Part shown: piece after piece, positions 4,735 to 49,456 of the stretch
Numbering within the stretch: position 1 is the stretch's first letter
Layout: every line of letters starts with the position of its first letter
Origin: Coleophoma eucalyptorum
Taxonomy: Eukaryota > Ascomycota > Leotiomycetes > Helotiales > Dermateaceae
Direction: 5' to 3'
Assembly: GCA_026120035.1 (NCBI GenBank)
Contig: JALRME010000014.1
Span: 949,757 to 1,013,756 of the forward strand
Length of the DNA stretch: 64,000 nucleotides
Position numbers and translations under genes: made by a program
The notes under the pieces: model-generated
Seen by the model: the letters and a program-made list of their open reading frames with translations, nothing else
Told to the model about the DNA's origin: nothing
The model's database searches: none

Positions 4735-6837
4735 ATGGGGACGTCTAGGTGGCTTCTATACACAGTGGCATTTCAAAGCCTTATTCTAGGAGTTTATGCG
4801 ACTGATATTTTGAAGCTATCAAGCTTTTCAGAATGCGTTGAGGCGCCTGACATCGTTATTGACCGGGCCAACATTGAATATGATTCGAAGACTCGTGAGA
4901 TTCAACTCGATATCGCAGGACGAAGCTCCAAGTCAGAGAATGTGACCGCAAATTTGTATGTCGCAGCATATGGGAAGCAGTTATACAAAAATAGCTTCGA
5001 CCCATGTGATAGCCAAACATATGTTGACCAACTTTGTCCTGGTGAGTAGATTCTGGTAGAGAATTATACATATTTGTTGATGAATTTGCAACAGTGCCTG
5101 TAGGTAATTTTGCTGCAGCTACTACCCAGACGATCCCCGCCGAATTTGCAGATAAGATTCCTTCGATTGCATATTCGATACCAGATATTGCATTGCAAGC
5201 AACAATAGAGCTGAAATCCTTGGATGATGGTAGGAATGTCGGATGTGTTGTTGCAGATCTTAGCAATGGAAAGTCAATCAACTCAGTGGCAACGACATAT
5301 GTGGCGGCAGCAATTGCGGCGGCCACGCTTCTCCTCACTGGAATAACTTCGCTTTTGAGCGGTGGAGGTGGAAGTGAGCCCGGAAAGGTTGGACCAAGTC
5401 CGAATTTCATGCATATAATGTCCTGGTTTCAAACTGTTGCGACCACGGGCATGTTAAGCGTCAATTACCCACCTCTCTATCGAAACTTTACAGAGAAATT
5501 TGCCTTCTCCACAGGACTGATTTCTTGGACTAAAATGCAGTCAACAATAGACTCTTTTAGATCTCGCACTGGTGGGAATATTACGACAGAAAATGTCCAT
5601 TACTTGAAAAACGCCACATTAGTCTTTTCTGAGGACAATGATTCAACCAACGACGTTCATGTCTCCCGATCCCTTTTATCGACTCTGAAAGTAATTCGGG
5701 ACTTCTCGTTCGGTGACGCCGGAAATGAGACAACAGGAAGCATCACTGCGGGCCTTACACGCCGTGTTTCTGGCATTCAAGCATATTCTGAAGAAATCGG
5801 AATTGTTCAAGAGAATACCTTTATGACAGCATGTCTGATAGCTTGTATTGTCTTTGCGGCAATCATAGTGGCAATTCTACTGTTGAAGGCGTTTCTTGAA
5901 TCCTGGGCTCTATGTGGGACAATCCCTAAATCACTTGCGGGGTTTCGAGAACATTACTGGGGTACCACTTTCCGATCTATTACCAACCTGATTTACATAT
6001 TTTACGGCCCGTGGGTTGGCTGGTGTATTTTCCAATTTAAGACCGGAGACTCTTGGGCGGCTACATTACTAGCTGCGGTCACCTTGATACTTTTCTCGGC
6101 CATTCTTCTATGCTTTGCCGTCGTTATTGTTCGTACTGCCCAAATATATATTAAGTCGCAGGGCTCCGCCGCCGCATTGTTTGAGGAAAAGAGAACCTGG
6201 CTTAAGTATAGTCTGTTTTACAATACATACCGCAAAAACTACTGGTGGTTCTTCAATGTAATCATTGCGTACAGCTTTATCAAGGGATTTCTCCTCGCAG
6301 CACTCAATGGTGAGGGCTTTGCTCAGACGGTCTCCCTGCTAGTGGTGGAAGCACTGATGTTTATTACCACCGTCATTATCCGCCCACATGAAAGGAATAT
6401 CGAGAATATAGTCAATATCGCAACCCGATTTGTCCAGACCTTAACGTTTGCAGGAATCATGGTTTTCGTAAATGAGCTGAAGGTTCAGAAATCAACACAA
6501 ACAATTATGGGATTCGCATTGGTCATCTTTTCATTAGTAACTACAGCAATCTTGGTCATCCTTTTGATCATTAGTACATCTATAACATGTTGCGTGAACA
6601 ATCCGCATCGTCAGCGAAGGAAAGAAGCTGGTATGTACACAATAGAATATGGTTCCATAGGAACTTTTGAGGTAAAATACTAATTTTCTTATAGAGAAAC
6701 AAAAGCGGGAATCAGAGGCATTGATAGCCCAAGGTCACTACAGTAGTAGCTATACAACCTCGGACAGTATGATCTACACGCGATCAATTAATAGAGATCC
6801 AGCTGCAGTGCCTTTATATACTCAAAATCATGTATAG
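4735..6837 (+). CDS. TRP-like / flavin carrier (FLC) family membrane protein
   Basis: Three exons: 4735-5041, 5095-6630 and 6695-6837 (introns of 53 and 64 bp with GTGAGT..CAG and GTATGT..TAG), giving 661 residues. The start at 4735 opens a signal peptide (MGTSRWLLY... to about residue 22). Then comes a Cys-containing ML-like lumenal domain (ECVEAPDIVID, QLCPVPVGNF, IPSIAYSIPD, GCVVADLSNGKS). A polytopic region of roughly nine hydrophobic segments follows (from about residue 185 to 590), with a polar C-tail. This is the architecture of fungal FLC1-3/Pkd2-type proteins (TRP_N plus TRP domains), linked to FAD transport in the ER, cell-wall integrity and calcium. The last exon replaces a run-on into intron 2. 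The gene looks intact; substrate and compartment here are inferred from the family. Confidence 0.88.
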
Positions 6838-10119: not shown

Positions 10120-10827
10120 CTATTTACAATCTGCAAAATATACTCCGAAGTATGACGTATATGGATTATGTGACTGATCCTTGTTAATTCCTTTTAGCAC
10201 CTCTTTAGTGCAGTGCAGCGTATGGCTATAGTCTCCTTGATGAGGATCTATTCCAAAGCCTCCGTGAATGGATCTTTGGATCCTGCGACTCAAGAAAATA
10301 CAGTGGCCAAGATGCTCTTCCCATGTCGTCCAGGTGAACTGAGGAAGAATTCGTTCGGAAAGTGCAATCTCATCGACAACGGAGTGTGTCAGGTTATCAT
10401 CCGTAAAGAAGGGCCATGGTCCACGCTCGCGCTCAGAGCTCATCACCCACTCACGAAATTCAGCAGATGTTTCTCGATCAAGGCACTCTTTTGGTAACCA
10501 TGTGTAGCTCAAGAGATCAAACTCGCAGCCCCGAGCTCGTGCCTCTACTGTCGTGTTCCCACAGGGCGATTCTGATGCCGATGTGCTCGATTCTCGAGTG
10601 GCAGTTCGGTTAAGAAAGTGGGAACGGATCATCATCCAGCCCGAGATCATAAAGATGACACCCATAAGGAAAGATAATCCGCTACAGAAGAGAAACAGAT
10701 ACGAGTGACGCTTGACATGGTCGAATGGATTGGTAGGCGGAAGGTCATCTCCTGAGGTTCTTTGTGAGATCTTTGAGTAGGTCTGAGGCCACTTCCACAT
10801 ATTGTTAGACTCTAATTGGACCAACAA
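10120..10827 (-). CDS. Single-pass membrane protein with paired HXXHC motifs (divergent UstYa-like)
   Basis: One exon, 235 residues (226 if it starts at the second ATG, MWKWPQ). A transmembrane helix lies at about residues 45-67 after a cytosolic N-tail. The ectodomain carries a conserved-looking block CGNTTVEARARGCEFDLLSY, WLPKECLD, then HLGHC and, 29 residues on, HTLHC. Two HXXHC motifs are the hallmark of UstYa/DUF3328 oxidases of fungal RiPP clusters, but the sequence between them does not look like a canonical UstYa domain. A paralogue with the same layout lies at 17717-18385 (CGTTNEEAIARGC, HGEHC, HANHC). Related fungal proteins are known to me only as hypothetical. A role in oxidative peptide tailoring is inferred from the motif pair and from the neighbours, not shown. 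Confidence 0.7.
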   Translation of the reverse strand: MLVQLESNNMWKWPQTYSKISQRTSGDDLPPTNPFDHVKRHSYLFLFCSGLSFLMGVIFMISGWMMIRSHFLNRTATRESSTSASESPCGNTTVEARARGCEFDLLSYTWLPKECLDRETSAEFREWVMSSERERGPWPFFTDDNLTHSVVDEIALSERILPQFTWTTWEEHLGHCIFLSRRIQRSIHGGFGIDPHQGDYSHTLHCTKEVLKGINKDQSHNPYTSYFGVYFADCK

Positions 10828-11881: not shown

Positions 11882-13827
11882 TTAACTTCCTCCTAACTCT
11901 GAAGATACGCTACTAACACGTTTATAGTCGTATGACCTTTCTTTCCTTTTCAAATATCGAGAGGAAATCCAAAATAGCGCTATAAAAACCAGAGCGAAAG
12001 CTACGAACCCCCCTGTCAATTTCACGGAGGTCCTCAACATAGAATTTTGCTTTGCATCAGAAACTGCGTTTGAAGGGCGAATGGTTTGATGAACCAAAGA
12101 TCGCCCTAGTATTACTCCTTCCGCACCAAGTCCTTCAACATAAACATATGCGATATTCCTTTCGGATACAAATGTTGTTTCAAAGCCTTCTTTAGGAACA
12201 GTTCCAAGCAGCGAGAATGACGAGTTATCAGCGGACCCGAAGAACTTCCATGATAAAACCTCCGTCGCACCGTTCCAGCTGACATAATGCACAGTGGTAG
12301 AAGGGCCGTAAACATATGAGATGGCATCTGGATTCGTCACTGGATAGCTCGTGAAATTGAACTTGTAAGAGCGATAGCTTGTAAAGCGATGGGACGCAAA
12401 CCGCGCTTCATAAATGAGACGTCCGTCAGTTGTAAACTCGCTGACATATCCATTATCGCTCCAACCAACAAAGGCGTGAGCATTCGGTAAGATCTGAACG
12501 TTCCCGCGGGCATACGACAAACCGTGATCAGGTCTCTCCCATCGGCGGAGAAGTCTCGCCTCCATAGTATTGGTATTCAGCTCTACAAGCAGAGCAGAAC
12601 TGCATTCCGCCGACTGATGCTTCTTGTCATCAGCTGCATTATTCAGGAGTGACAGTATCGTAACAGTTCGGTCCTCGTATCGAACTCGAGCATCATGTTG
12701 ATGAGAAAAGTTGAAGCCTTTGAGAGTAAAGGAGGAGCCCTTTCCTCCTAGCTGCCACACGATCGAGCCGTCAAGATGAGATATCTTGTAAATTGCACTG
12801 GTAGCTCGGGCGGAAACTATATAGTCTCCTTTGAAGGTCTTCTCTACAGAATTCATATGGCTACAAATTTTAGTATCTTGTCTCACTAGTGTGCAGCTGG
12901 GTGGACTGGTCTCACATCCAATCCCAATATAAGCTCATATCAACACCGGTCTCAGCCCCCGAAATCGGTACACTCCCGGGCCGGTGGTTTGGGTTGCCAT
13001 CGCGCGGCCACTCATCATATGTTGCATTCAACTCAATATGGGTCAAGGGGCTCCACTGGAATAAGACTGCATTGGTGGCCACATCGATCTCAATAAAGCC
13101 ATTATCAACAACTTTAAGCCCATTTATCTCTGCCGGAATGGCCGTTATAACCAGTGCAGATTTACCATCGTTGATGAGATTAAATTCATGCATATCGAAA
13201 TCCGTGCCGCTCAAGGCTGGAGTCATCCCGATCAGCTGATACGAACTGTTCAAATATACTCCTGTTCCGGCAGGAGTATTGTGACGGTACTTGTTAGGTG
13301 TCAATATGAAGGAGAGGGTCGGGACATGATTAACGTCAACGAGCTTGAAATCAAACGTGTTTCGGTTCGACAGCCATGCTGCACCCGTCCATATCAGTTC
13401 CTATTACCAATTAGTCGAAGGTAAAAACACAGGTATGTGGTCGGAGTACTCCATCAGAGGTGTATATTGCAGGGCCAATCTGCGCAGGTTGGAAGTTGTA
13501 AGGTTGTGGCTTGGGCCAGACATCGGTGTACGCGCCAACAAACAAATATCCTGAAGTCACCAGACCTCTCTCATAAATGGAGATATTCCAAGAAGGTGGA
13601 CGAAGGTCTGGTGCCTATGGCCAATTGTGTTAAATATGTATTGTTTGGAGGGGAAAGGAGATATTCACCGACTTGAATGGGCCAGCTAGATCCTTACTGT
13701 TCCACGGCACAAAGTCTTTGCTCAAGTCTTCACTCAGACTGATCAAAGCGAAGCAGCCCTGGCCGAATACTGTGAGTAGCAAGGCATTGAGGAGCTGCAT
13801 CTGAAGGCTAGTACCGGATCGGCGCAT
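11882..13827 (-). CDS. Arylsulfotransferase (ASST)-like secreted/membrane protein
   Basis: Four exons on the minus strand: 13669-13827, 13450-13614, 12916-13400 and 11882-12860, joined by introns of 54, 49 and 55 bp, for 595 residues with all frames closing. The N-terminus is a signal peptide (LLNALLLTVFGQGCFA). The body has the features of fungal ASST (PF14269-type) beta-propeller proteins: DGELIWTG, DMHEFNLINDGKSALVI, FIEIDVATNAVLFQWSPLTH, WDWIHMNSVEK, DYIVSARATSAIYKI, GSIVWQLGG, FSHQHDARV, VSWNGATEVLSW and YVYVEGLGAEGVILG. A C-terminal membrane helix (FVAFALVFIALFWI) precedes a basic tail. Bacterial ASSTs move sulfate between phenolic compounds; fungal members are mostly uncharacterised. 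The gene is divergent to the UstYa gene at 14726 and so probably shares its promoter region. Confidence 0.85.
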
Positions 13828-14725: not shown

Positions 14726-15898
14726 ATGGATGTCAAATTTGAAGCAAGCGTACCGTTCTTGAAAAACGTCGACGACGATGGGGAGCTTTCTTACCATAAA
14801 AGATATGTTGAGATTCATGGACGATCATTCTCATGGTATCTTTTTGCAGTCGTTCTATTTCTCTTAAGTCATATTTTGACATTTGTCTTCGCCAACTGGA
14901 CGTGGACCAGAAATATTGACAATTTCTGTGCACTTCACACATCTCAAAGCTGGAGTAAGTTTTATCTGGGATTGGAACTGCGAATAAAACTCACATTCAA
15001 TTTTTAGGCCCTGTCCTCGATGACGTAGATATTAAATATACTACGCGTACCTTTCATGGCTCATTCTTCAAAGATGATACAATATACAGGCAGTCAGCAA
15101 GTCCGGAAGTAGACCAGGCATGGCGAGATCTTGGCATTGATTGTAAGTATTTTCCGGTTTTCTTCTTAATGATTCTCCGAGAGGTTTGAGAAATAGTGCG
15201 AAGAAAAGCATTATCTCAGTTCATATTTGTGAAGCCATCTCAGAATGCTACCAAAATATGGAATTAACTGATAACACCATATAGATAGAGGATTGCTCGT
15301 TGCACCTTCTAAAGCTGAGAAAGCAAATATCGCCTCGAACCGTGTCATGTTTAATGAAACCTGGGGCGGCCCTGGCTACCCAGGTATTTTTGAAGTCTTC
15401 CATCAACTGCACTGCTTGGTAAGTCACCTCACTCATTTCATATAACCCTCAAATCCGGTCGTCTGATAATTTATATTCAAACACAGGACATCGTTCGCAA
15501 AAGCACCTTTTACAATTATGAGTATTATCTGAATCTTGGTGAGGGTGCATTTGAACACCCTAAGACCATACTTCCAGCACATGTTGGTTAGTATAACCCT
15601 GTCTCCCTACATACTTCGGGAGATACTTTATTCAAAGGATATTAATTTCTATGATGGCTCAGCGCACTGCATTGATACCATCCGACAACAATTGATGTGT
15701 ACGGCCGATACTGGTATCCACCCCTTTATTCTTGTCGGCGATCCTCCAATGGTCTTCCCAGAATTCACCCGCGAGCATAAGTGTAAAAACTTTGAGGATA
15801 TCCGTGCATGGGCCGAAGAGCACCAAGGGAATTTTGATGAGAGGGCCCGTTTTCATACACCTCTCGAAGGCGAACTTATTTTGGATGAGATGCCGTGA
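14726..15898 (+). CDS. UstYa-type (DUF3328) oxidase-like protein 1
   Basis: Five exons: 14726-14954, 15008-15142, 15285-15418, 15487-15586 and 15663-15898 (introns 53, 142, 68 and 76 bp), giving 277 residues. After a cytosolic N-tail there is one transmembrane helix (WYLFAVVLFLLSHILTFVF, about residues 38-56). The ectodomain contains SPEVDQAWRDLG, then FHQLHCLD (first HXXHC) and HVAHCIDTIRQQLMC (second HXXHC, whose codons are split by intron 4), ending FPEFTREHKCKNF and GELILDEMP. This is the standard layout of UstYa-family proteins, copper-dependent oxidases that cross-link or oxidise core peptides in dikaritin RiPP pathways. It lies 458 bp from the stop of the repeat-bearing precursor at 16356, the two genes converging. 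All splice sites are GT..AG and every frame closes. Confidence 0.92.
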
Positions 15899-16355
15899 TG
15901 AAATATTAAATTTAAATCAAATTTCTATAGTTACCGCAGCCATAGAATGCATTTATCTGTATGCAAGAAATTTATGTAGAACTCATGATATGATAGATCA
16001 TCCTTCACAATCCCTGTAAAAAATATTGCAGCTCAACTTCTCTTCTAAACAATTTGCATTCCTTCCCAGTAAAGAGATTTTCAAAATGTCAAGTCCAACA
16101 TCTGCAGTCACTCGATCCTGATACCCAAAGACATAAGAAGGATTTTCATACTTTTATAGCTTCTTAAAATACACGGCGGGCCTTACGATGGCTTCTTACG
16201 AAACAAAAATGTACCAAATACAAATTAGAGCACGGCGCAGAATGTTGAATTCTACTTATACATCTATGGATATAATCTTCAACCATCCCTTCCCATAAGA
16301 CGTCAAACAATAACATATGTTACTCCCGTACTTCTTCAAATCCTGCCTCCTATCC
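15899..16355. other. Convergent intergenic spacer
   Basis: AT-rich 3' regions of the UstYa-like gene (plus strand) and the peptide precursor (minus strand). No gene is seen. Confidence 0.5.
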
Positions 16356-16819
16356 TCAAGGACCAACCGAGTACTCTCCATAGTTGGAAAACTCAGGATC
16401 CCTCTTGGACTTTGCAGTCACACTGTACTCTCCATAGTTGGAAAACTCAGGATCCCTCTTGGACTTTGCAGTCACACTGTACTCTCCATAGTTGGAAAAC
16501 TCAGGATCCCTCTTGGACTTTGCAGNNNNNNNNNNNNNNNNNNNNNNNNNNNNNNNNNNNNNNNNNNNNNNNNNNNNNNNNNNNNNNNNNNNNNNNNNNN
16601 NNNNNNNNNNNNNNNNNNNNNNNAGTCACACTGTACTCTCCGTAGTTGGAGAATTCAGGATCTCTTTTTGCCACAGCTTCGGCAGGTTCTATGCATTTTA
16701 TCAGTACAAGTTCATAACACATGCCACAAGGTTGGAAACCCACCTTCAATAATGGCGATTGGGCTGGCAAGAACCGTGGCTACGAGAGCGGCTGAAACAG
16801 TGTGAAAGAAGAACTTCAT
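16356..16819 (-). CDS. RiPP precursor with tandem Kex2-bounded core repeats (UstA/dikaritin type)
   Basis: Minus strand; exon 1 is 16744-16819, the 55-bp intron is 16689-16743 (GTGGGT..ATAG), and exon 2 is 16356-16688. The start ATG (16819-16817) opens a clear signal peptide (MKFFFHTVSAALVATVLASP), followed by a short acidic leader ending VAKR. Then come repeats of 18 codons (54 bp) consisting of DPEFSNYGEYSVT and the linker AKSKR. One copy is visible before and three after an assembly gap (16526-16623). The last copy ends SVGP and a TGA at 16356-16358. A secreted leader, Lys-Arg (Kex2) sites and identical Tyr/Phe-bearing cores are the signature of fungal dikaritin precursors, whose aromatic residues are modified by UstYa-type enzymes. 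UstYa-like genes lie on both sides. The chemistry of the product is unknown. Confidence 0.9.
16373..16665 (-). repeat. 54-bp tandem repeat array encoding the core peptides
   Basis: The period is exactly 54 bp between equivalent points at 16373, 16427 and 16481; a further copy lies right of the gap (16624-16662). The copy right of the gap differs from the others at three third-codon positions (GAA/GAG, TTC/TTT, TAC/TAT) without changing the peptide, so selection appears to act on the peptide. Confidence 0.92.
16526..16623. other. Assembly gap (98 N) inside the repeat array
   Basis: Frame continuity of the repeats requires a true gap of 54k minus 2 bases (52, 106, 160 ...). 98 is none of these, so the gap length is an estimate and the number of core copies is unknown. 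Confidence 0.95.
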
Positions 16820-17716: not shown

Positions 17717-18385
17717 TCATATAGAGTCCAATCTTAAACACCTGTAGAATCCTAACACCACATCGTTGCTAGCATTTTTCCCCTCCAGCCTCTGATTAAG
17801 CTCCATTGAACAGTGATTTGCGTGGCTCACATCAAGCGTCTTATGATCAATCCACTCACTTCGGCGTTGTACCGCGATCGCCAACTTTCTCCACAAGAAC
17901 AAGCAGTGTTCTCCATGATACCGGCGAGTGTAGATGTGTTTGTGTTTCCCAGCCCAGATGTCAGCCGAGGGAATTTTCTCCTCTTCTAAATATGAATTCG
18001 ACAAGTACCAATCTCGATCTTCAAAGGGGTTGTATTGACTGGTTAATTCCGAAAAGTAACATGGCTTGGGCATCCAGCCATATACCATAGGTTCCATTAT
18101 ACAGCCGCGAGCTATAGCTTCTTCGTTGGTGGTACCGCAGGTGAGAATATTAGTCGTCGCTAGGATGTGGGAGTTGGAAGTTGGGGACAAGAGATAAGTC
18201 CCAACGGCGCCCAGAGAAGTCGCTGTCGCAAGACATAGAAAATAAAATATCCAGCGTGTTGGCATGACTTTGGCGGTTGGTTGTCTAACTGTCTCGGGAT
18301 CTGAAGCATCGAATAGTCGATGATATGTAATTGATTTGGGACCAGAACTAGCCCAGCGCCAGAGGGATTTACTCTTGGAATTCAT
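17717..18385 (-). CDS. Single-pass membrane protein with paired HXXHC motifs (divergent UstYa-like) 2
   Basis: One exon, 222 residues. A transmembrane helix is at about residues 43-66 (WIFYFLCLATATSLGAVGTY). The ectodomain has CGTTNEEAIARGCIMEPMVY, WMPKPCYF, then YHGEHCLFLWRKL (HGEHC) and SHANHC (second HXXHC). The layout matches the protein at 10120-10827, including the Cys-rich EA-ARGC block, the W-P-C motif and the spacing of the two histidine motifs, so the two are paralogues. It lies between the RiPP precursor and the second UstYa gene, with which it is divergent. I infer a UstYa-like oxidative role on the peptide; the domain itself is uncharacterised as far as I know. Confidence 0.72.
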   Translation of the reverse strand: MNSKSKSLWRWASSGPKSITYHRLFDASDPETVRQPTAKVMPTRWIFYFLCLATATSLGAVGTYLLSPTSNSHILATTNILTCGTTNEEAIARGCIMEPMVYGWMPKPCYFSELTSQYNPFEDRDWYLSNSYLEEEKIPSADIWAGKHKHIYTRRYHGEHCLFLWRKLAIAVQRRSEWIDHKTLDVSHANHCSMELNQRLEGKNASNDVVLGFYRCLRLDSI

Positions 18386-19437: not shown

Positions 19438-20538
19438 ATGGAGTCGCAAATTCAAGAAAATATACCTTTCTTGTCGGGCGACCTAGATCACGACGACCAT
19501 AAGATCTACCATTCAGCAAAAGAACATAAGAGTCGTGAGCAATCATTACAACGCTATCTAGCTCTCATCCTCATCTTATTCTTTCTCTCAAATATCTGTA
19601 CCTTCATTTTTACACACTGGATTTGGACCAGAAATATCGACAACTTAGTTGTGTCCTATACATCTCAAAGTTGGAGTAAGTACACCCCACATCTGGTCTT
19701 ATTCATGAATAAAAGATTGGTCTGATTCAGCTCCGGCAGGCCCGGTTTCAGATGACATAAACATCCAATACATCACGACTGCCTTTGACGGATCTTTCTT
19801 TAAAGAGTCAATCTATCGGCAGACACCGAGCCCAGAGGTAGACCAAGCATGGCGAGATCTGGGGATTCAATGTGAGTTTGTCCATACTCGTCATAGGCCA
19901 TTGACACCTTGAACCAAAAACGAAGAAGACCACTGACGACATAACAAAAGACAAGGCTTTGGTCGTTCCGTCATCTCAGGCTGAAAAAGCGGGCATCATT
20001 CCTGATCGTGTGTCATTAAATGAAACCAATGGCGGTCCAGGCTATCCAGCTATCTTTGAAGTATTCCATCAACTTCATTGCCTGGTAAAACTCCTGTTCT
20101 TATTATATACCGTAACTCCTAGCTGAAAGTATTAACATGTAGGACTTTCTTCGTAAAGGATTATATTTCAATTACGAATACTATGTAAACCTCAGTGAAG
20201 GCCCGTTCAAGCACCCCGAAAAACAATTGAAGCCACATATTGGTAAGATTGACACCCTACATCCTAGAGTTGTCTACACATCTAACAGATCTAATCTTTC
20301 AGGGCACTGCCTCGACATGGTTCGGCAGCAACTGATGTGTTCGGCGGACACGGGTCTCCAGCCATTCATCTGGGTAGGCGACCCTCCGCATCCCTTTCCC
20401 GACTTCAACCAGAAGCACAAGTGCAGGAATTTTGACGCAATTCGAGAGTGGGCAGCGCTGCACCAAGGGAACTTTGATGAAAAGGCAGATTATCATGTGC
20501 CTCAAAAAGGAGAGTTGATCTTGGATGAAGTACCGTGA
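19438..20538 (+). CDS. UstYa-type (DUF3328) oxidase-like protein 2
   Basis: Five exons: 19438-19675, 19740-19871, 19951-20084, 20143-20242 and 20303-20538 (introns 64, 79, 58 and 60 bp), giving 279 residues. Exons 3, 4 and 5 have exactly the same lengths (134, 100, 236) as in the gene at 14726, and all introns sit at equivalent codons, so the two are duplicates. It has one transmembrane helix (LALILILFFLSNICTFIF), SPEVDQAWRDLGI, FHQLHCLD (first HXXHC) and HIGHCLDMVRQQLMC (second HXXHC), ending GELILDEVP. As in dikaritin clusters such as ustiloxin, two UstYa-type proteins may act together. All frames close and no damage is seen. Confidence 0.92.
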
Positions 20539-42007: not shown

Positions 42008-43723
42008 CTAGCCGACCAAAACAATATCCGATTTTCTCGATACCTTTCCGCAAGAGCGCTCAATAGCACCAGCCTGGACAGCTTCAGACCCAGAAGGAAT
42101 AGAAAAGGAAGTCTCAAAGCCCTCCTTAGAGATAATTCCAACACGCTTGAGTGTCTCGTTGCTGGACCCTGCATAAATTTCATATTCAGTGACGTCTGTC
42201 GCTCCATTCCAGCTCACATAACCACGGAGTAAAGAAGAAGTGCAGCTACTCAGTAAATCATTGGCTGTAAGCTGCTTAACTACCAGGCTTGGTTTCGCTG
42301 ATGGAGTAGCATGCCATTCATCCTTGTAAACACGGTACGAATCAGCAGTGTCAGAGGTGCTGAATTGAGCAGACCAGCGCACGTCGCTACCATCGGGTTT
42401 GGAACCATATTCCTTGATAATTGGATGGAGACCATAGCCCATTAGGTAATTTCCATTTGATAGCGACGTGAATGAACCTGCGGCAGCGGTGAAAAGCGTC
42501 TGCACAGGGTCGGAGAGGTTGGTATAGACGACAGGAGGATGGTCGGAATCAGGAACTTTTGGGAGGATCAGCGAGAGACCAACCGTTGGGATGGTGGTGT
42601 TCAATTGCCAATTGTTGTTCGCGAACATGGTGTATAGATTGCGATCCTTGGAAAACTCTTGGATACGAACCATGTGCTGCCAGGACTAGAGGAATGATTA
42701 AATGTTGGTCGGCTGGCTTAGATAGAACGGATGAAAGGATGAAAAGAAGAAACTAACAAATTGGACGTTGGATGGAAGAGCACCGAAGTCGCCTCCAGTT
42801 TCGCCGTTGATCTCCCACAAGATTTTTCCGGCTCGATTAACTAAATATGATGTCCACGTGTGACGACTGTTGATTAAATAATTATCGCCAAAAGACTCGA
42901 TAGAATTGGTGTGAAACCAGTCATAGGGAGTTGTCCTATTTAATCCGGTAGAACCAATGGGCATGTGGGTGGCAGTAACAGGCACATGAGCCAATGGACT
43001 CCAGATAAACAAAACATTGCCAGTCTTTATATCGACTTCGACAGCAAGAGGGTCCAGGACCCATCCATTGTCAGGCCCACCTACAGCAGTGAGGTTGGTC
43101 TGTGTGAGATTATATGCTGTAACAAGCATAGTATCGCGAGGAGTGATAAAGGATTCGTGAACGTCATTTTGGCATGGTGGAATTATACCTGGAAAGTTCA
43201 TGTCATTCAGCTGGAGACAAACGGTGTGAATGACTGAGTAAGATTGATCAAGAATTGGCACTTTGCCGTACCCATATGAAGCCAGTCCATCGTTCGCAGG
43301 ACTGCCTACACCGGTCCAGTATGTAATTACGGGTTTGTTGTCGAATTTCTGAACCCGAAAGTTATTTGTGGCTTCTGTAGGCCCAGCCCAAATCAGTTCA
43401 TTAGTGTCGGTAAAGATAATAGGTGCCTGTTGTTTAGCTCCAGGGGGAGTTGCATCATTCGTCTGAGCCAGGAAAAGAAAACCTGGGGCAAGCGGTTCGC
43501 CGGAAGCATTTATCCTCATGAAAGGAGGTGTCGCATTGAACGATTGATAAGTCTGCCAGGGCCAGATACCCGCGAGAGAATCCTCCGCGACCTCGCGGCT
43601 ATTGGCCGAGCAGACAACTGTTTTGTCTTCATGTCGATACCAAAACCGAGAAGGTGAACACTCTGTTTGTGAAAGAGCCAGGGCAAAACACAAGAGTTCA
43701 GAAAATCTCCGATGAAGATACAT
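42008..43723 (-). CDS. Arylsulfotransferase (ASST)-like secreted protein 2
   Basis: Two exons: 42758-43723 and 42008-42685 (intron 72 bp, GTTAGT..CTAG), 547 residues. A signal peptide lies at the N-terminus (RFSELLCFALALSQTEC). ASST motifs: GIWPWQTYQSFNATPPFMRI, APGFLFLAQ, ELIWAGPTEATNNFRVQKFD, CQNDVHESFITP, LDPLAVEVDIKTGNVLFIWS, SPLAHVP, PYDWFHTNSIESFGDNYLIN, HTWTSYLVNRAGKILWEI, VSWNGATDVTEYEIY and GIISKEGFETSF. Unlike the copy at 11882 it has no C-terminal membrane helix. An additional short intron near 43600-43645 is possible (a GTATCG..AATAG pair preserves the frame). The two ASST genes are family members rather than recent duplicates. Confidence 0.82.
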
Positions 43724-45177
43724 AGCTGCTTGGTTGATACAGGCGAGACAATCAAGTTGAAAGAAACTGGGCTTTGCATAGCGAAGGCCACGATATATAT
43801 AGTCTTTAGGGATGGAAATTCATGGCAACTCTCTCTCTCTTTTTAGTCACTGGTTATCCGAAATAAGGCAAACCCTTCTCCAGTGCAAATTCCCCAGGAA
43901 TATTTCGTACATGGACCCACATAATGAGAGTGCGGGGAGTTTGCGATGTAAAGATAAACGACCGGAATCCGGCAGCCCAGGGCTTGAATATACCTGACAG
44001 CCCAAATCTAACAGGGAAATATAACTACGTGACCTTAGTCTACACCGCAAAGATCCTCCCACATTAGAGCGTCATGAATAAACTTTTCTGGGTCAACTTA
44101 TCTCTCAGACGCTTATATAATCGTATTAAATTTGCATTTTCTGATATCTAGGTTCCGTGCCTCACGCATAGAGCCTGTATAACAGTCTCAAACCTCAGCT
44201 TTCTCGATTAACCCATAGGTAGTGATGATCCAAACCACAGAAATGGGTTAATTAGCTAAAGGGAATTCCCGATTTGCGATTTTAGAGGAGCGGTTCTAGT
44301 TTCTCAAACTCCGCCAAATCTTGGAAAATTGTGAGTTGCTGGTGCAGCTGGGTACAGCAGACTGCTGGAACGGATCGAAAGGCTTTAGGCCTAAGACGGC
44401 CAAATCCCCCATTACCCTGACTTTATTAGCACGGAAAAGGCGTTTTCCACGGAGTCCGAACGGAACGTGGCACCAATAAACATCTTAGCCCACTTCCCGG
44501 GCGCTCAAATCCACGGATTTCTCCGTGCGGGGTGCCGAACCAGAATGTAAGTGAGCAGTTGACTGGCCGACTTACTTGAAGCTTTTAAAAAGTATAACAA
44601 TTGTAACTCTTTTGATCAACTTTCTTACTCTCTGTATACATCGGTTGAGCTTAGCTAATTGATCAACCGACCTATCTCTAAGTGCTTAGTCTACTTTCTT
44701 TTTTAATGAATGGTATCATGTAATATAATATCTTGTAGCCTCGTGTCAGAAGTTGATGTCTGGCTGAGTGCTTTAGCTTCTGTTGCTTTAGGCAGCAATA
44801 CCTTGCCATAAGAGCATGAGATATATAGAGGTCTTCAGTTAGAAGAATGCTCAATGCTGTACAAAGTCTTTACAGAGTTTCTAACTACTCTGGTATATAT
44901 ATACTTACAACGTAGCAACTTAACAGTCAAGTACTTACACTGCAAACAGCTTATTCCGTTATTCAGTTAATCATCCAATCAGAACCTCCATTTTCTAACA
45001 TTCTAAGACTCCTTTGAAAACGGGCGTTACTCAAAGGAGTTTCCTGACATTTTAGCAAAAACTCATTTTCAGATTGGTAAAAAGCATTCGTACACAAATC
45101 AGTCATAAGAACGTTGTTATTCTAATAAAATGATTTTTTTATGATTTATGATATGTATTTGACTCTATGGGAGTAGT
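43724..45177. other. Intergenic, with LTR-like repeat at its right
   Basis: No gene. A short ct-rich run (43830-43842) and the repeat 44786-45000 are the only structures noticed. Confidence 0.5.
44786..45000 (-). repeat. LTR-like repeat, left copy
   Basis: Shares ctttaggcagcaatacc, agagcatga-agatata, gtcttcagt-agaaga-tgctca, tacagagt, gtatatat-tacaacg-agtaac and cagaacctcc-ttttc-aaca with 53830-54051, in the same orientation. Read on the minus strand the repeat starts TGTT(A/G)GAAAA, a common start of fungal LTRs. Confidence 0.65.
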
Positions 45178-46947
45178 TTAAACTAAGGGCAGGATGATTC
45201 GGCTAGGGTACTCTGGCCCAAAATGTACCTTATGAAAGCCCTTATTAATGCCATTCTTCATACCGCCAGCCAGCGGCTGAAAAGCCGCTATCGTGGGATT
45301 GCTACCAAGAACATGGACCTCCAGTCCTTCCCCAGCCTCATAGTCAATCCCCATTGCCCATAGTCCGATCTCGAGCTCCACCACCTTACCGCGCGAGGTG
45401 TCGAGCTTCTTCGCATGCGGATGATATGGGTATTGAGGATGCATTGTCTTTGAGGAATCGATCTCACGATGTGAGGCTCGGAGCATGCCGACTGGTCCCG
45501 GATAGAGGATCAGGTCACTCTTATCCTTGTCCTTAATATCGTCCATCTTGCTGACCCGCGCGTTCGACCATGGAATGTTTAAAGCTAGCAGGAGTTTTCC
45601 AGTCGGATCAAGCTTGCGGATGATGACAAAGACATCCATGTCATCCTCATCGTCACAAGACATATAGATTACGGCTTTTGGCAAACCGATAAGCCTAGTT
45701 TGCTCCTTAAACGTATATCGAAATTTCGAGCTCTGCATAGTTGCTGAGTCGTAACTAGACACGCCGGCTTCCTGACTTAATGTGGGGAAAAGTTTCCCAT
45801 CTGGAGCAAAAAAGAACTCTGTATACTTGGTATTAGGAATTGGGAAATCATCCACCGTAATATTATACTCTGGATCTCGTTCACCAAACTTAAGAGCTGT
45901 GACACGGACTCGAGGAGTCTCCTCCCATCGATTATCGAGGCCTTTTAAATACTTGTCGAAAAAGGCTTGAAGCTCGTTTGTTGAGTTTTCATCGTTCCAG
46001 ATGTCGTACCACTCCTGCCAAGGGCCTATTCGGAACCACTTATCCTTCGATGGAATCTCGAGCCAGCCACGGATTGATCCTATTACGTGAACATTGCTCG
46101 AATAGCTACCCGTGAGATATGTTGGGATATTAATATTTTTAAGGTTCGCCCGCTTATCATCCCAGAATGAGTTCACTAGGCCTTTGCTCCTACGGAACAT
46201 CTCCTTGAAATCTTCCATACCATGACGTCCCTGGATGAAGACACTGGAGATATAGTCGAAGAAGTCGCCATGCCACATACCGCCCCGTCCAAATTGTTCT
46301 CGGAAGAGGTCAGAACATGCTTCCCAGGGCGCAATTGCTTTCAGAGATGGCGGCTTTTGTGCTGCCACAAAGTACTGCGTAATGGCGAGGTGGGAATTAC
46401 CGACCATACCCACATTGCCAGAACACCAATCCATCTTCGCAATCGTTTCGATCACATCATACCCATCTTCGCCTTCCTGGGTGCCCATGATTACCACTGG
46501 CCCATCGGAGTCCCCTGTGCCTCGAGTATCGGCACTGATAATGGCATACCCTCTAGGGATCCATTCTGCAGGATCTGGCGCCTCGAACTTCTCCAACCCA
46601 GAAAGTTTGCCGTCGGGTACACCGACATTCCAGGGCGTCATAAGGTTCAACATACAGAGGCCGCTAAATTTCTTCCCAAATGGGCTGAACCCAAGAAGCG
46701 CAGGGACTTTGTTATTACTGCCCGTTTCTGGTGAACGATAAACGTCGCAATAAAGTCTCGCCCCATCCCGCATCATGATCTCGACATCGTGTTCAACGAG
46801 AATATCACAAGGCAAGGCACGAGAGCGGTATCCATTCCAACCTTTCGGAAGAATCTCACTCTGCCCCTTTTTGAAACCTTGATAGTTGTTCCGACCAAAT
46901 CTTGGAGGATCAATGGGTTTTGTGGCGATGAGGACTGGAGGAGGCAT
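45178..46947 (-). CDS. CocE/NonD-family hydrolase (X-Pro dipeptidyl-peptidase S15 type) 1
   Basis: One exon. The frame is open from 47094, but the ATG at 46947 (MPPPVLIATKPIDPPRFG) gives the better N-terminus and 589 residues. An alpha/beta-hydrolase domain includes EIMMRDGARLYCDVYRSPE, GFSPFGKKFSG, GYAIISADTRGTGDSDGP, and the nucleophile elbow MVGNSHLAITQYF (GNSH, Ser). A second half with the jelly-roll of the PepX_C type follows (TRLIGLPKAVIYMSCDDED, DMDVFVIIRKLD, GPVGMLRASHREID, VVELEIGLWAMG). Members hydrolyse esters or amides (bacterial cocaine esterase, glutaryl acylases); the fungal role is unknown. It is divergent to a second family member at 47411 with only about 460 bp between them. 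Confidence 0.88.
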   Translation of the reverse strand: MPPPVLIATKPIDPPRFGRNNYQGFKKGQSEILPKGWNGYRSRALPCDILVEHDVEIMMRDGARLYCDVYRSPETGSNNKVPALLGFSPFGKKFSGLCMLNLMTPWNVGVPDGKLSGLEKFEAPDPAEWIPRGYAIISADTRGTGDSDGPVVIMGTQEGEDGYDVIETIAKMDWCSGNVGMVGNSHLAITQYFVAAQKPPSLKAIAPWEACSDLFREQFGRGGMWHGDFFDYISSVFIQGRHGMEDFKEMFRRSKGLVNSFWDDKRANLKNINIPTYLTGSYSSNVHVIGSIRGWLEIPSKDKWFRIGPWQEWYDIWNDENSTNELQAFFDKYLKGLDNRWEETPRVRVTALKFGERDPEYNITVDDFPIPNTKYTEFFFAPDGKLFPTLSQEAGVSSYDSATMQSSKFRYTFKEQTRLIGLPKAVIYMSCDDEDDMDVFVIIRKLDPTGKLLLALNIPWSNARVSKMDDIKDKDKSDLILYPGPVGMLRASHREIDSSKTMHPQYPYHPHAKKLDTSRGKVVELEIGLWAMGIDYEAGEGLEVHVLGSNPTIAAFQPLAGGMKNGINKGFHKVHFGPEYPSRIILPLV

Positions 46948-47410
46948 TGTTCTACAGTCGGGAATGGAAAGCCAAGAGAAGCAATGAATTATAGGAGCCG
47001 TTGCACAAGGAAGAGGTACATAAAAATGATAACAAATGTCAAGAATGAAAAACCTCAATACACAGCGAATTGATATACAGGTCTCGTCCATCACGTGCTT
47101 CTGTCTCTTTACACTACCTAGCCGGCCGAAAGACCAGCTCCGCGGAGTCCGATGGTAGGGGACTCCACCTTCGGCATACGCCCTACTGCATGCAAGTCTC
47201 GTAATCGATTAGTCCGAGCATAGGCTTTAAAAGACTTTCAGTTTTGTTGCTTATAATATCACGTTTCGTTAATTCTCGGCCGCTGTCGATTCTATACCAC
47301 ACTATAAATTTAGATTCTATACTACCATATAAATTCGGACCACACCTCAACGAAACTTCTCCTTATTCCACAGCGTCTTCCAGAAAACCTGACATCACAC
47401 AATAGTCAAC
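46948..47410. promoter_or_regulatory. Divergent promoter region between the two CocE/NonD genes
   Basis: 463 bp shared by two oppositely read paralogues. It contains CGGCCGAAAG and TCTCGGCCGCTG words (CGG/CCG half sites typical of Zn2Cys6 binding). A Zn2Cys6 gene lies 2.1 kb beyond. Binding is conjecture. Confidence 0.45.
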
Positions 47411-49456
47411 ATGGGGGAAACAACTTTTACAGGCGTCGAGAAAGTCCTCCAGATACCACTAGCGTCGATTGAAGAGCACCACCACTACAAACCATCAGCT
47501 GCCAAGAGCGAGATCTTACAAGTAGGAACTGTCCAGGTTGATGGTCACCGGCCCCTCCTCTGTGACATCCTTGTCGAGAGAGACATACCCATCTCCCTAC
47601 GCGACGGCACCATCATTTACGCAAACATCTTTCGGCCGCCTTATGCAGCTCCACGCACCGTCCCGGCTATCATTGCCGGCGGGCCCTTTGGGAAAGACGG
47701 CGGGCCGAACAGGAAAAACTTTGATAACTGGCCGTGGCGATTCGGGTGTCCGCGCGTGGCAACTTCAGGTCTGGAGAAATTTGAGGGACCAGATCCGGGC
47801 TACTGGTGTTATCATGGATATGCTATTGTTCATACAGGTTAGCTAGCATGAACCCCTTCCTCGTCTTTTAAAAAGCCACAAATCAGTTGGGTTTTTGGCT
47901 GGCAGGCTTTATACTAACTCCACGTCATCAGATTGCCGCGGCGTCTGGAACTCCCAGGGCGATATGAACATGCCCTCTAAAGCAGAGGGGAAAGACAACT
48001 ACGATATTATCGAATTTCTTTCGACATTACCATGGTGTAATCAGAAGGTCTCAATGTCGGGAAACAGTTACCTGTCCATGACCCAGTGGTTTACCGGTGC
48101 CGAAAGACCACCCCATCTCGCTTGCTTGGCTCCGTGGGAGGGCATCTCAGACTTGTATAATGACCTGGTGAGGAGGGGAGGTGAGTGCTTCACTACGCAA
48201 GACCGAGACGTTCTTGAATTTTTCGTTCTCAACTGATGAAAATTGGCTAGGGATTCCAAGTCCTGGCTTTGCGGATGGCTTGATTCGTGGTGATGTCGCC
48301 TCTTCGAACGGGAGTAAAGGGATTGATATGAACGCTATGTGCTATAAGTATGATTTGTGGAACGACTGGTGGGCCGAATTTGTCCCGGATCTGGAGAAAA
48401 TAAATTGTCCACTCTACGTGGTCTCGAGTTGGACAAATGCACTGCACGTGAGTGGGACGTTTCGTGGGTGGGAAAAGAGTGGCAGTCAGGAGAAATGGCT
48501 CCGCATTCATAATTCACATGAGTGGCCAGGTATATATACATGTCTTTATGAGCAGAGATTAAAAAACAGAGGACAGTGAGACTAACAACCCGATCCGTAC
48601 AGATCTATATGACGAGCATAGCCTTATAGACTTGAGAAAGTTCTTCGATCACTATTTAAAGGGCGTCAATAACGACTGGGCCTACACCCCACGGGTTCGA
48701 ATGTGTGTACTCAATGCCGGAGGCAACGACATCATCAACCGGCCGGAGCAGGAATTCCCTCTCCAGCGCCAACAGCCACTGAAGCTTTATCTTGACGCAT
48801 CCAACATGATGCTGGCACCGAAGGATCTGCCAAACGCATCAAAAGTTTCGTACGACGCATGTACAGGATCGGTGCAATTTCGCACCACTGTCACGTCGTC
48901 CATGGAAATCACAGGTTACATCAGCCTCCGCTTGTGGGTAGAGGCCGAGGGTTCCAACGACATGGACATCTATGCAACGCTCCAGAAATTTGACAGCAAA
49001 TCACAGATGCTGGAGTGCCCCATGGTGGATGTGGGACGACTCCTGGCAGAGCCGGAGAAGGAACGGCAGGCAATGATGGACGGTCGCGCCAAGGACCCCA
49101 AGTCCTGGGAGATCTATTTTGACTCGGGCCCAATGGGGTGTCTGCGTGTTAGTCACCGCGGCCTGGACGAGAAGGAGTCTAGAACTTTCCATCCCGTGTA
49201 CTCGCACCTGGAAGAGCGTTTGCTAAGTCCTGGCGAGGTTGTACCTGTGGACATTGCCTTTTGGCCTTATGGGATGATTGTTAATCCGGGGGAAGAGCTA
49301 CGGGTAACGGTCTCGGGCATCAATACTAAGGAACATCTGCGCCCGAATGATTTGAGACCGGAGCTACGCAATTGCGGCATGCACACTCTCCATACCGGCG
49401 CGGATCGACAGTCATATATTCTCTTGCCATTGGTGTCAGGTGCACCAGGCCTCTAG
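47411..49456 (+). CDS. CocE/NonD-family hydrolase 2
   Basis: Four exons: 47411-47837, 47932-48180, 48251-48529 and 48603-49456 (introns 94, 70 and 73 bp), 602 residues, all frames closing. It shares the layout of its divergent neighbour: RDIPISLRDGTIIYANIFRP, GGPFGKDGGPNRKNF, TSGLEKFEGPDPGYW, CRGVWNSQGDMN, nucleophile elbow MSGNSYLSMTQWF (GNSY, Ser), then RKFFDHYLKGVNNDW, PRVRMCVLN, SMEITGYISLRLWVEAEGSN, DMDIYATLQKFD, GPMGCLRVSHRGLD and VVPVDIAFWPYG. The first paralogue has no introns while this one has three, so the duplication is old or one copy lost introns. Probable cytosolic ester or amide hydrolase. Confidence 0.88.

Follow-up and report, generated by a model that had tools for sequence, protein, structure and literature searches.

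Dikaritin gene clusters, such as those for ustiloxin, phomopsin, asperipin-2a and victorin (and, for some authors, epichloecyclin), combine a precursor that carries a signal peptide and Lys-Arg (KR)-bounded cores with adjoining UstYa/DUF3328 genes. The precursors are described as being cut by Kex2 and cyclized by UstYa homologues (PMC9233826, PMC10512285), and the second of these sources, a review, counts no more than five dikaritins reported by 2022. DUF3328 proteins, among them CctR, ApnU and AprY, have been described as membrane-anchored binuclear copper enzymes with the metal held by an HxxHC(x)nHxxHC arrangement (PMC12435403), and the pair of HxxHC motifs has been recommended as the mark of the family in a preprint of 2026 (PMC12871659). 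DUF3328 genes were reported near 22% of 7878 fungal KEX2-processed repeat proteins (KEPs), on average 3.09 genes away (PMC7329392). Here we describe a locus of the fungus Coleophoma eucalyptorum, contained in 64,000 nucleotides of contig JALRME010000014.1 (positions 949,757 to 1,013,756; referred to as the window), in which a precursor gene matching the build of KEPs (Umemura 2020, Le Marquer 2019) lies between two UstYa genes. The region of about 10.1–20.5 kb of the window is very probably a gene cluster of the dikaritin type for a ribosomally synthesized and post-translationally modified peptide (RiPP). It differs from the known dikaritin clusters in its core, DPEFSNYGEYSV, in two additional proteins with paired HxxHC motifs that do not belong to Pfam UstYa, and in an arylsulfotransferase-family gene. 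The precursor and the UstYa genes are located as follows.

16819–16744 (exon 1), 16743–16689 (intron) and 16688–16356 (exon 2), minus strand: KEX2-repeat precursor gene with signal peptide, KR site and DPEFSNYGEYSVT-AKSKR repeats.
14726–14954, 15008–15142, 15285–15418, 15487–15586 and 15663–15898, plus strand: UstYa/DUF3328 gene 1, five exons, motifs HQLHC and HVAHC.
19438..20538, plus strand: UstYa/DUF3328 gene 2, five exons, motifs HQLHC and HIGHC.

The product of exon 1 is MKFFFHTVSAALVATVLASPIAIIE, whose N-terminus, MKFFFHTVSAALVATVLASPIA, was recognized by eye as a signal peptide for the endoplasmic reticulum (ER). The predicted intron is 55 nt long, is bounded by GT and AG and contains TACTGATAA close to its 3′ end. 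Exon 2 opens with EPAEAVAKR, followed by the DPEFSNYGEYSVT-AKSKR units, and Tandem Repeats Finder showed a 54-bp period with 100% matches at 16371–16525. The signal peptide, the 55-bp intron and the 18-codon Lys-Arg repeats claimed for the minus strand by the initial annotation are thus borne out by the spliced translation and the period. That annotation had overlooked a run of 98 N inside the array, a length out of step with the reading frame, and the absence of the linker from the last copy, which closes SVGP-stop. Up to the N run the spliced reading is MKFFFHTVSAALVATVLASPIAIIEEPAEAVAKR-DPEFSNYGEYSVT, and beyond it AKSKR-DPEFSNYGEYSV occurs three times. Since two further tandem arrays, in the stretches of the assembly that were fetched, likewise contain runs of N (97 and 98 bases), the run in the precursor is probably an assembly gap of nominal length; therefore only the readable copies of the 18-residue KR-bounded repeat can be counted (n = 4), and the continuity of the frame across the run is beyond checking.

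The first repeat copy differs from the next ones by three bases, all in third codon positions and all synonymous in the precursor frame, where about 20% of the possible single changes in the repeat would be expected to be silent. In the last copy Ser-Val is kept through different codons. In the other two frames of the same strand the copy differences alter residues and stops are present; on the opposite strand they alter residues in two of the three frames and the third has a stop. A scan of a 1-Mb order-1 random DNA control gave no segment with at least three similar KR-bounded cores. Because of the synonymous differences and the empty control, the array is confirmed as coding on the minus strand, beyond chance. 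The contrary explanation, a chance repeat or low-complexity DNA with the real gene on the plus strand, could appeal to an overlapping plus-strand open reading frame of 162 codons (16317–16805), though this crosses the N gap. The copy differences are silent in the minus-strand frame only, save for the one opposite frame with a stop, and the signal, the intron and the KR sites stand in register on the minus strand, which leaves a plus-strand gene barely credible.

The build of signal peptide plus KR-bounded repeats is shared with ascomycete alpha-pheromone precursors. The alpha pheromones of Leotiomycetes and Sordariomycetes are described as having two conserved Cys residues (PMC6339444), whereas the present repeat has none, and pheromone precursors were reported almost never to adjoin DUF3328 genes (PMC7329392); a pheromone gene is accordingly most improbable here. 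No paralogous precursor with the same core was found in the C. eucalyptorum genome, where the array DNA matched only its own gene, before the gap and after it. None of EFSNYGEY, NYGEYS and SNYGEYS occurred in the open-access literature searched (5.39 million papers), a corpus outside which the supplementary tables of the KEP surveys lie.

The two UstYa genes give PF11807 matches at 15293–15823 (E = 4.6e-24) and 20143–20457 (E = 1.4e-22), and are therefore members of the Pfam family. Their products share 55% identity over 288 columns (BLASTP) and each has, by eye, one N-terminal hydrophobic segment. For gene 2 some exon borders are uncertain (acceptors of exons 2 and 3), so that eight open models are possible. 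The precursor is separated from gene 1 by about 0.5 kb and from gene 2 by about 2.6 kb. UstYa-type neighbours had been named beforehand as a test of the dikaritin-like reading proposed in the initial annotation, and with PF11807 genes on both sides of the precursor, each with two HxxHC motifs, that reading is supported at the gene level.

The repeats could also be processed to linear, unmodified secreted peptides of a signalling or effector-like kind, with the oxidase genes as uninvolved neighbours. Linear peptides are thought to be the original form of KEPs, and 78% of the 7878 fungal KEPs surveyed were without a DUF3328 gene nearby (PMC7329392). Here, however, UstYa genes flank the precursor on both sides, and the three other KEPs found in the genome also adjoin UstYa-type genes or genes of the CG family described below. 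The repeat contains two Tyr and one Phe, and Tyr was reported in 65.6% of the repeats of DUF3328-associated KEPs against 38.2% of the others (PMC7329392). Linear peptides are on these grounds unlikely. Weighing against a dikaritin-type cluster are the break of the repeat array by the assembly gap and the want of support for conservation of the core: a homologue search run with the 55-residue piece after the gap as query, a design that leaves longer precursors out of reach, gave no homologue at E ≤ 1 among 31 word-sharing candidates. A cluster of the dikaritin type is preferred because of the anatomy of the precursor, the synonymous copy differences and the two flanking UstYa genes with intact motif pairs.

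In the proposed pathway, the signal peptide, seen in the sequence, would take the precursor into the ER. A Kex2-type protease of the Golgi would cut after each Lys-Arg to release DPEFSNYGEYSVTAKSKR units, which a carboxypeptidase would trim, as in established KEP processing. The two anchored UstYa proteins, whose HxxHC-(x)n-HxxHC copper site would face the lumen, would then oxidize side chains of the units, those of Phe or Tyr being the likeliest in view of the CctR, AprY and UstYa precedents, giving a cyclic or otherwise oxidized secreted peptide. The calculated monoisotopic masses of the unmodified peptides are 1506.615 for DPEFSNYGEYSVT and 1294.535 for EFSNYGEYSVT, and each cross-link would lower them by 2.016. 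We infer the Phe/Tyr cross-linking, the boundaries of the core, and the expression and secretion of the units. Two further proteins encoded in the cluster, referred to here as CG-family proteins, are most likely additional oxidases acting in the same compartment with the same type of metal site, to judge from their motifs, topology and recurrent neighbourhood. Their genes are:

17717..18385, minus strand: CG-family protein 1 (222 aa), single exon; N-terminal hydrophobic helix, CG..EA..GC Cys-rich module, HGEHC and HANHC.
10120..10800, minus strand: CG-family protein 2 (226 aa), single exon, layout as in protein 1; HLGHC and HTLHC.

Neither protein gave a Pfam match over the cut-off, and the two share 25% identity (E = 2e-12). 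In the assembly searched (45.3 Mb, 101 contigs), searches with three CG members gave 14, 13 and 12 places at E limits of 0.01, 0.001 and 0.001, respectively, which merge to 14 genes; one more was found by motif, making 15 genes at 10 loci. An alignment of eight members showed C83, G84, A90, G94, C95, C109, H157, H160, C161, H188, H191, C192 and C216 (numbering of the 17717–18385 protein) to be invariant, the invariance of the motifs being built in, as the members were picked for an open frame and both motifs. In a wider alignment of 22 sequences one member, whose frame overruns the exon end, departs from the second motif. The HxxHC pair is readable in 12 of the 15 genes, in one segment in 10 and over two segments in the other two (at C16:571 kb and at the end of contig C56). 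The three broken cases are a C90 gene (RQVYC, HTEQC), a C4 gene (first motif REEHC, with stops in frame) and one of three C9 genes. Invariance of the pair across the family was consequently rejected, the alignments having held only open-frame members. The spacing between the motifs is 27–37 in the 10 single CG segments, and 27–34 in five of six UstYa segments and 53 in the sixth.

A profile of the CG family retrieved 32 database proteins at E ≤ 0.001, one of them from Xylogone, and none of the 32 had a precomputed Pfam domain. A description of the family was not found in the open-access literature, the body searched, to which subscription papers and supplements do not belong; a tool published in 2024 for enzymes that have no recognized domain sorted 572 fungal biosynthetic proteins lacking Pfam domains into groups (PMC11109268). 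The CG proteins resemble the DUF3328 enzymes in a layout of transmembrane-plus-lumenal type and in the two HxxHC motifs readable in most of the genes. They are unlike them in the CG..A...GC..C module and a conserved C-terminal Cys, both invariant in the aligned members, and in being undetected by PF11807. What is new here is a family without a Pfam model, with a Cys-rich module of its own and two HxxHC motifs spaced as in UstYa.

The distribution of the family in the genome was compared with that of UstYa, for which 47 PF11807 hits merged to 26 loci. A Pfam UstYa gene is found within 10 kb at six of the 10 CG loci, a proximity for which 1.5% of the genome qualifies (binomial p = 2.6e-9; p = 1e-7 when the window's own locus is left aside). 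A seventh, on C9, adjoins divergent UstYa-like genes found by a local hidden Markov model (HMM) search (L034 4590–5213, minus strand; L035 2315–2935, plus strand; L numbers denote fetched stretches). The co-occurrence could also arise only because both kinds of loci sit in metabolite gene islands. A scan for KR-bounded repeats took in all 10 CG loci, with a second, less powerful scan of the nine that lie outside the window, and KEX2-repeat precursors were found at four: that of the window and the following three.

L027 5322–6576, plus strand: precursor on C56 near 30 kb, GEQSVDPEGMFSTSVD-(V/NA)-KR, counted as 18 units, assembly gap present; UstYa and CG genes lie nearby.
L037 3–552, minus strand: precursor at the end of C56, 16 units of DILSQDKR; the gene has an intron and a first exon that resembles a signal sequence, and adjoins a CG gene at the contig end.
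L034 8628–9236, minus strand: precursor on C9, 12 KR-bounded repeats of AEPAQMGTQAYK; three CG genes, the two divergent UstYa-like genes named above and a gene for an M1 aminopeptidase are close by.

Assuming 5–40 KEPs genome-wide, four KEPs at CG loci correspond to p values of 3e-9 to 5e-5 and three or more to 1e-6 to 1e-3, the window's locus having been chosen, not drawn. No KEX2-repeat precursor was found in five stretches at UstYa loci without CG genes (L038–L042, one single-flank). Major facilitator superfamily transporter genes are present at both C56 loci. The C9 locus had been considered as a case of CG genes without any UstYa, and was dropped as such when the local HMM search found the divergent genes there. 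The end of C56 is then the only locus with a precursor and a CG gene for which the fetched stretch gave no UstYa hit; about 2 kb is left there to the contig end. At two further CG loci, on C4 and C90, the fetched stretches contained neither a UstYa gene nor a precursor:

L015 1228–1989, plus strand: CG gene of the C90 locus, broken HxxHC.
L010 1588–2001, minus strand: CG gene of the C4 locus, broken HxxHC, frame with stops.

These loci hold two of the three broken CG genes, for which simple counting on small numbers gives a chance of about 0.03 (3 of 105 ways). Broken motifs at loci free of UstYa and precursors fit a motif that is kept for work in such clusters.

The relationship of the two families was approached through structure prediction and profile comparison. 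The AlphaFold2 (AF2) monomer model of the 17717–18385 protein has helices at 44–65, 157–173 and 186–197, with an HxxHC motif at 157 and at 188, that is, each time at the start of a helix, with strands before and after and a single N-terminal transmembrane helix. Block means of confidence are 85–98 for residues 81–220 (overall mean 82.5). The AF2 model of UstYa has the same order of elements, but its mean confidence (pLDDT, predicted local distance difference test) of 57 is weak. In hhalign comparisons of CG with UstYa both motif pairs were aligned, with P values of 3.2e-4 and 2e-4 and probabilities of just 39% and 47%. In a small local set (24 stretches plus the window) the CG HMM matched two Pfam UstYa proteins (E = 2.8e-4 and 6.6e-3), and the UstYa HMM matched five CG segments at non-significant E values of 0.04–0.41.

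Several results tell against counting the CG proteins among UstYa-like oxidases. PF11807 matched none of eight CG members over the cut-off (best E = 0.18), and the CG gene at L035 244–999, which stands beside the C9 precursor, has the broken motifs YLSHC and HSKDC. Shuffles of the alignment columns that kept the six motif residues attained the CG-UstYa score in 7 of 100 and 3 of 100 cases, and shuffles of all columns in 0 of 50; the match is therefore mostly motif. Convergence on a metal-site motif may lie behind such a likeness instead, and remote homology is not proven against it. Remote homology of the CG family to UstYa is likely, as the simplest reading of the sequence comparisons, and we propose a role as partner oxidases for the CG proteins, which are probably copper enzymes. 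More tentatively, as a proposal that we consider plausible rather than probable, the CG..EA..GC double-HxxHC proteins may form a second lumenal copper oxidase family that partners, and sometimes replaces, UstYa in KEX2-repeat RiPP pathways; some of the KEPs recorded without DUF3328 would then be oxidatively modified.

The Pfam scan covered four open reading frames from the stretch at 10–20.6 kb of the window, in addition to the genome search with PF11807, so that other tailoring genes, if small or split, may have escaped notice. It gave one further gene:

11882..13827, minus strand: arylsulfotransferase-family gene (PF14269), in several frames, probably with introns; by eye, a signal-like start and a C-terminal hydrophobic segment.

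This is a possible tailoring gene, whose membership of the cluster is uncertain. Among 15 arylsulfotransferase loci counted in the genome, two (in the window and on C11) lie within 10 kb of UstYa, and a link with UstYa is suggestive only, which leaves tyrosine sulfation a bare conjecture. At the C11 locus (L042, C11:320500–330499) pieces of a UstYa-like gene lie about 8.7 kb from the arylsulfotransferase-family gene, and neither a CG gene nor a KEX2-repeat precursor was found in that stretch. A second arylsulfotransferase-family gene (PF14269) of the window is at 42701–43819 (minus strand). Two S15/PepX-type genes, bearing X-Pro dipeptidyl-peptidase family names, are found at 45181–49453, about 25 kb from the precursor; the precursor units start with Asp-Pro after Kex2, and this proximity is probably a coincidence. 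A TRP-channel gene at 5094–6683 looks unrelated to the cluster. The window is the end of its contig (C7) and terminates in TTAGGG repeats, which we take to be the telomere.

The cluster supplies a defined substrate, DPEFSNYGEYSV, together with its likely enzymes. If the CG proteins are indeed a second oxidase family, Pfam-based surveys of DUF3328 would overlook them. Once confirmed, the CG family could be searched for as a marker of fungal peptide clusters that are invisible to Pfam-based mining, and the route from an HxxHC pair to an oxidase could be followed in a second lineage.
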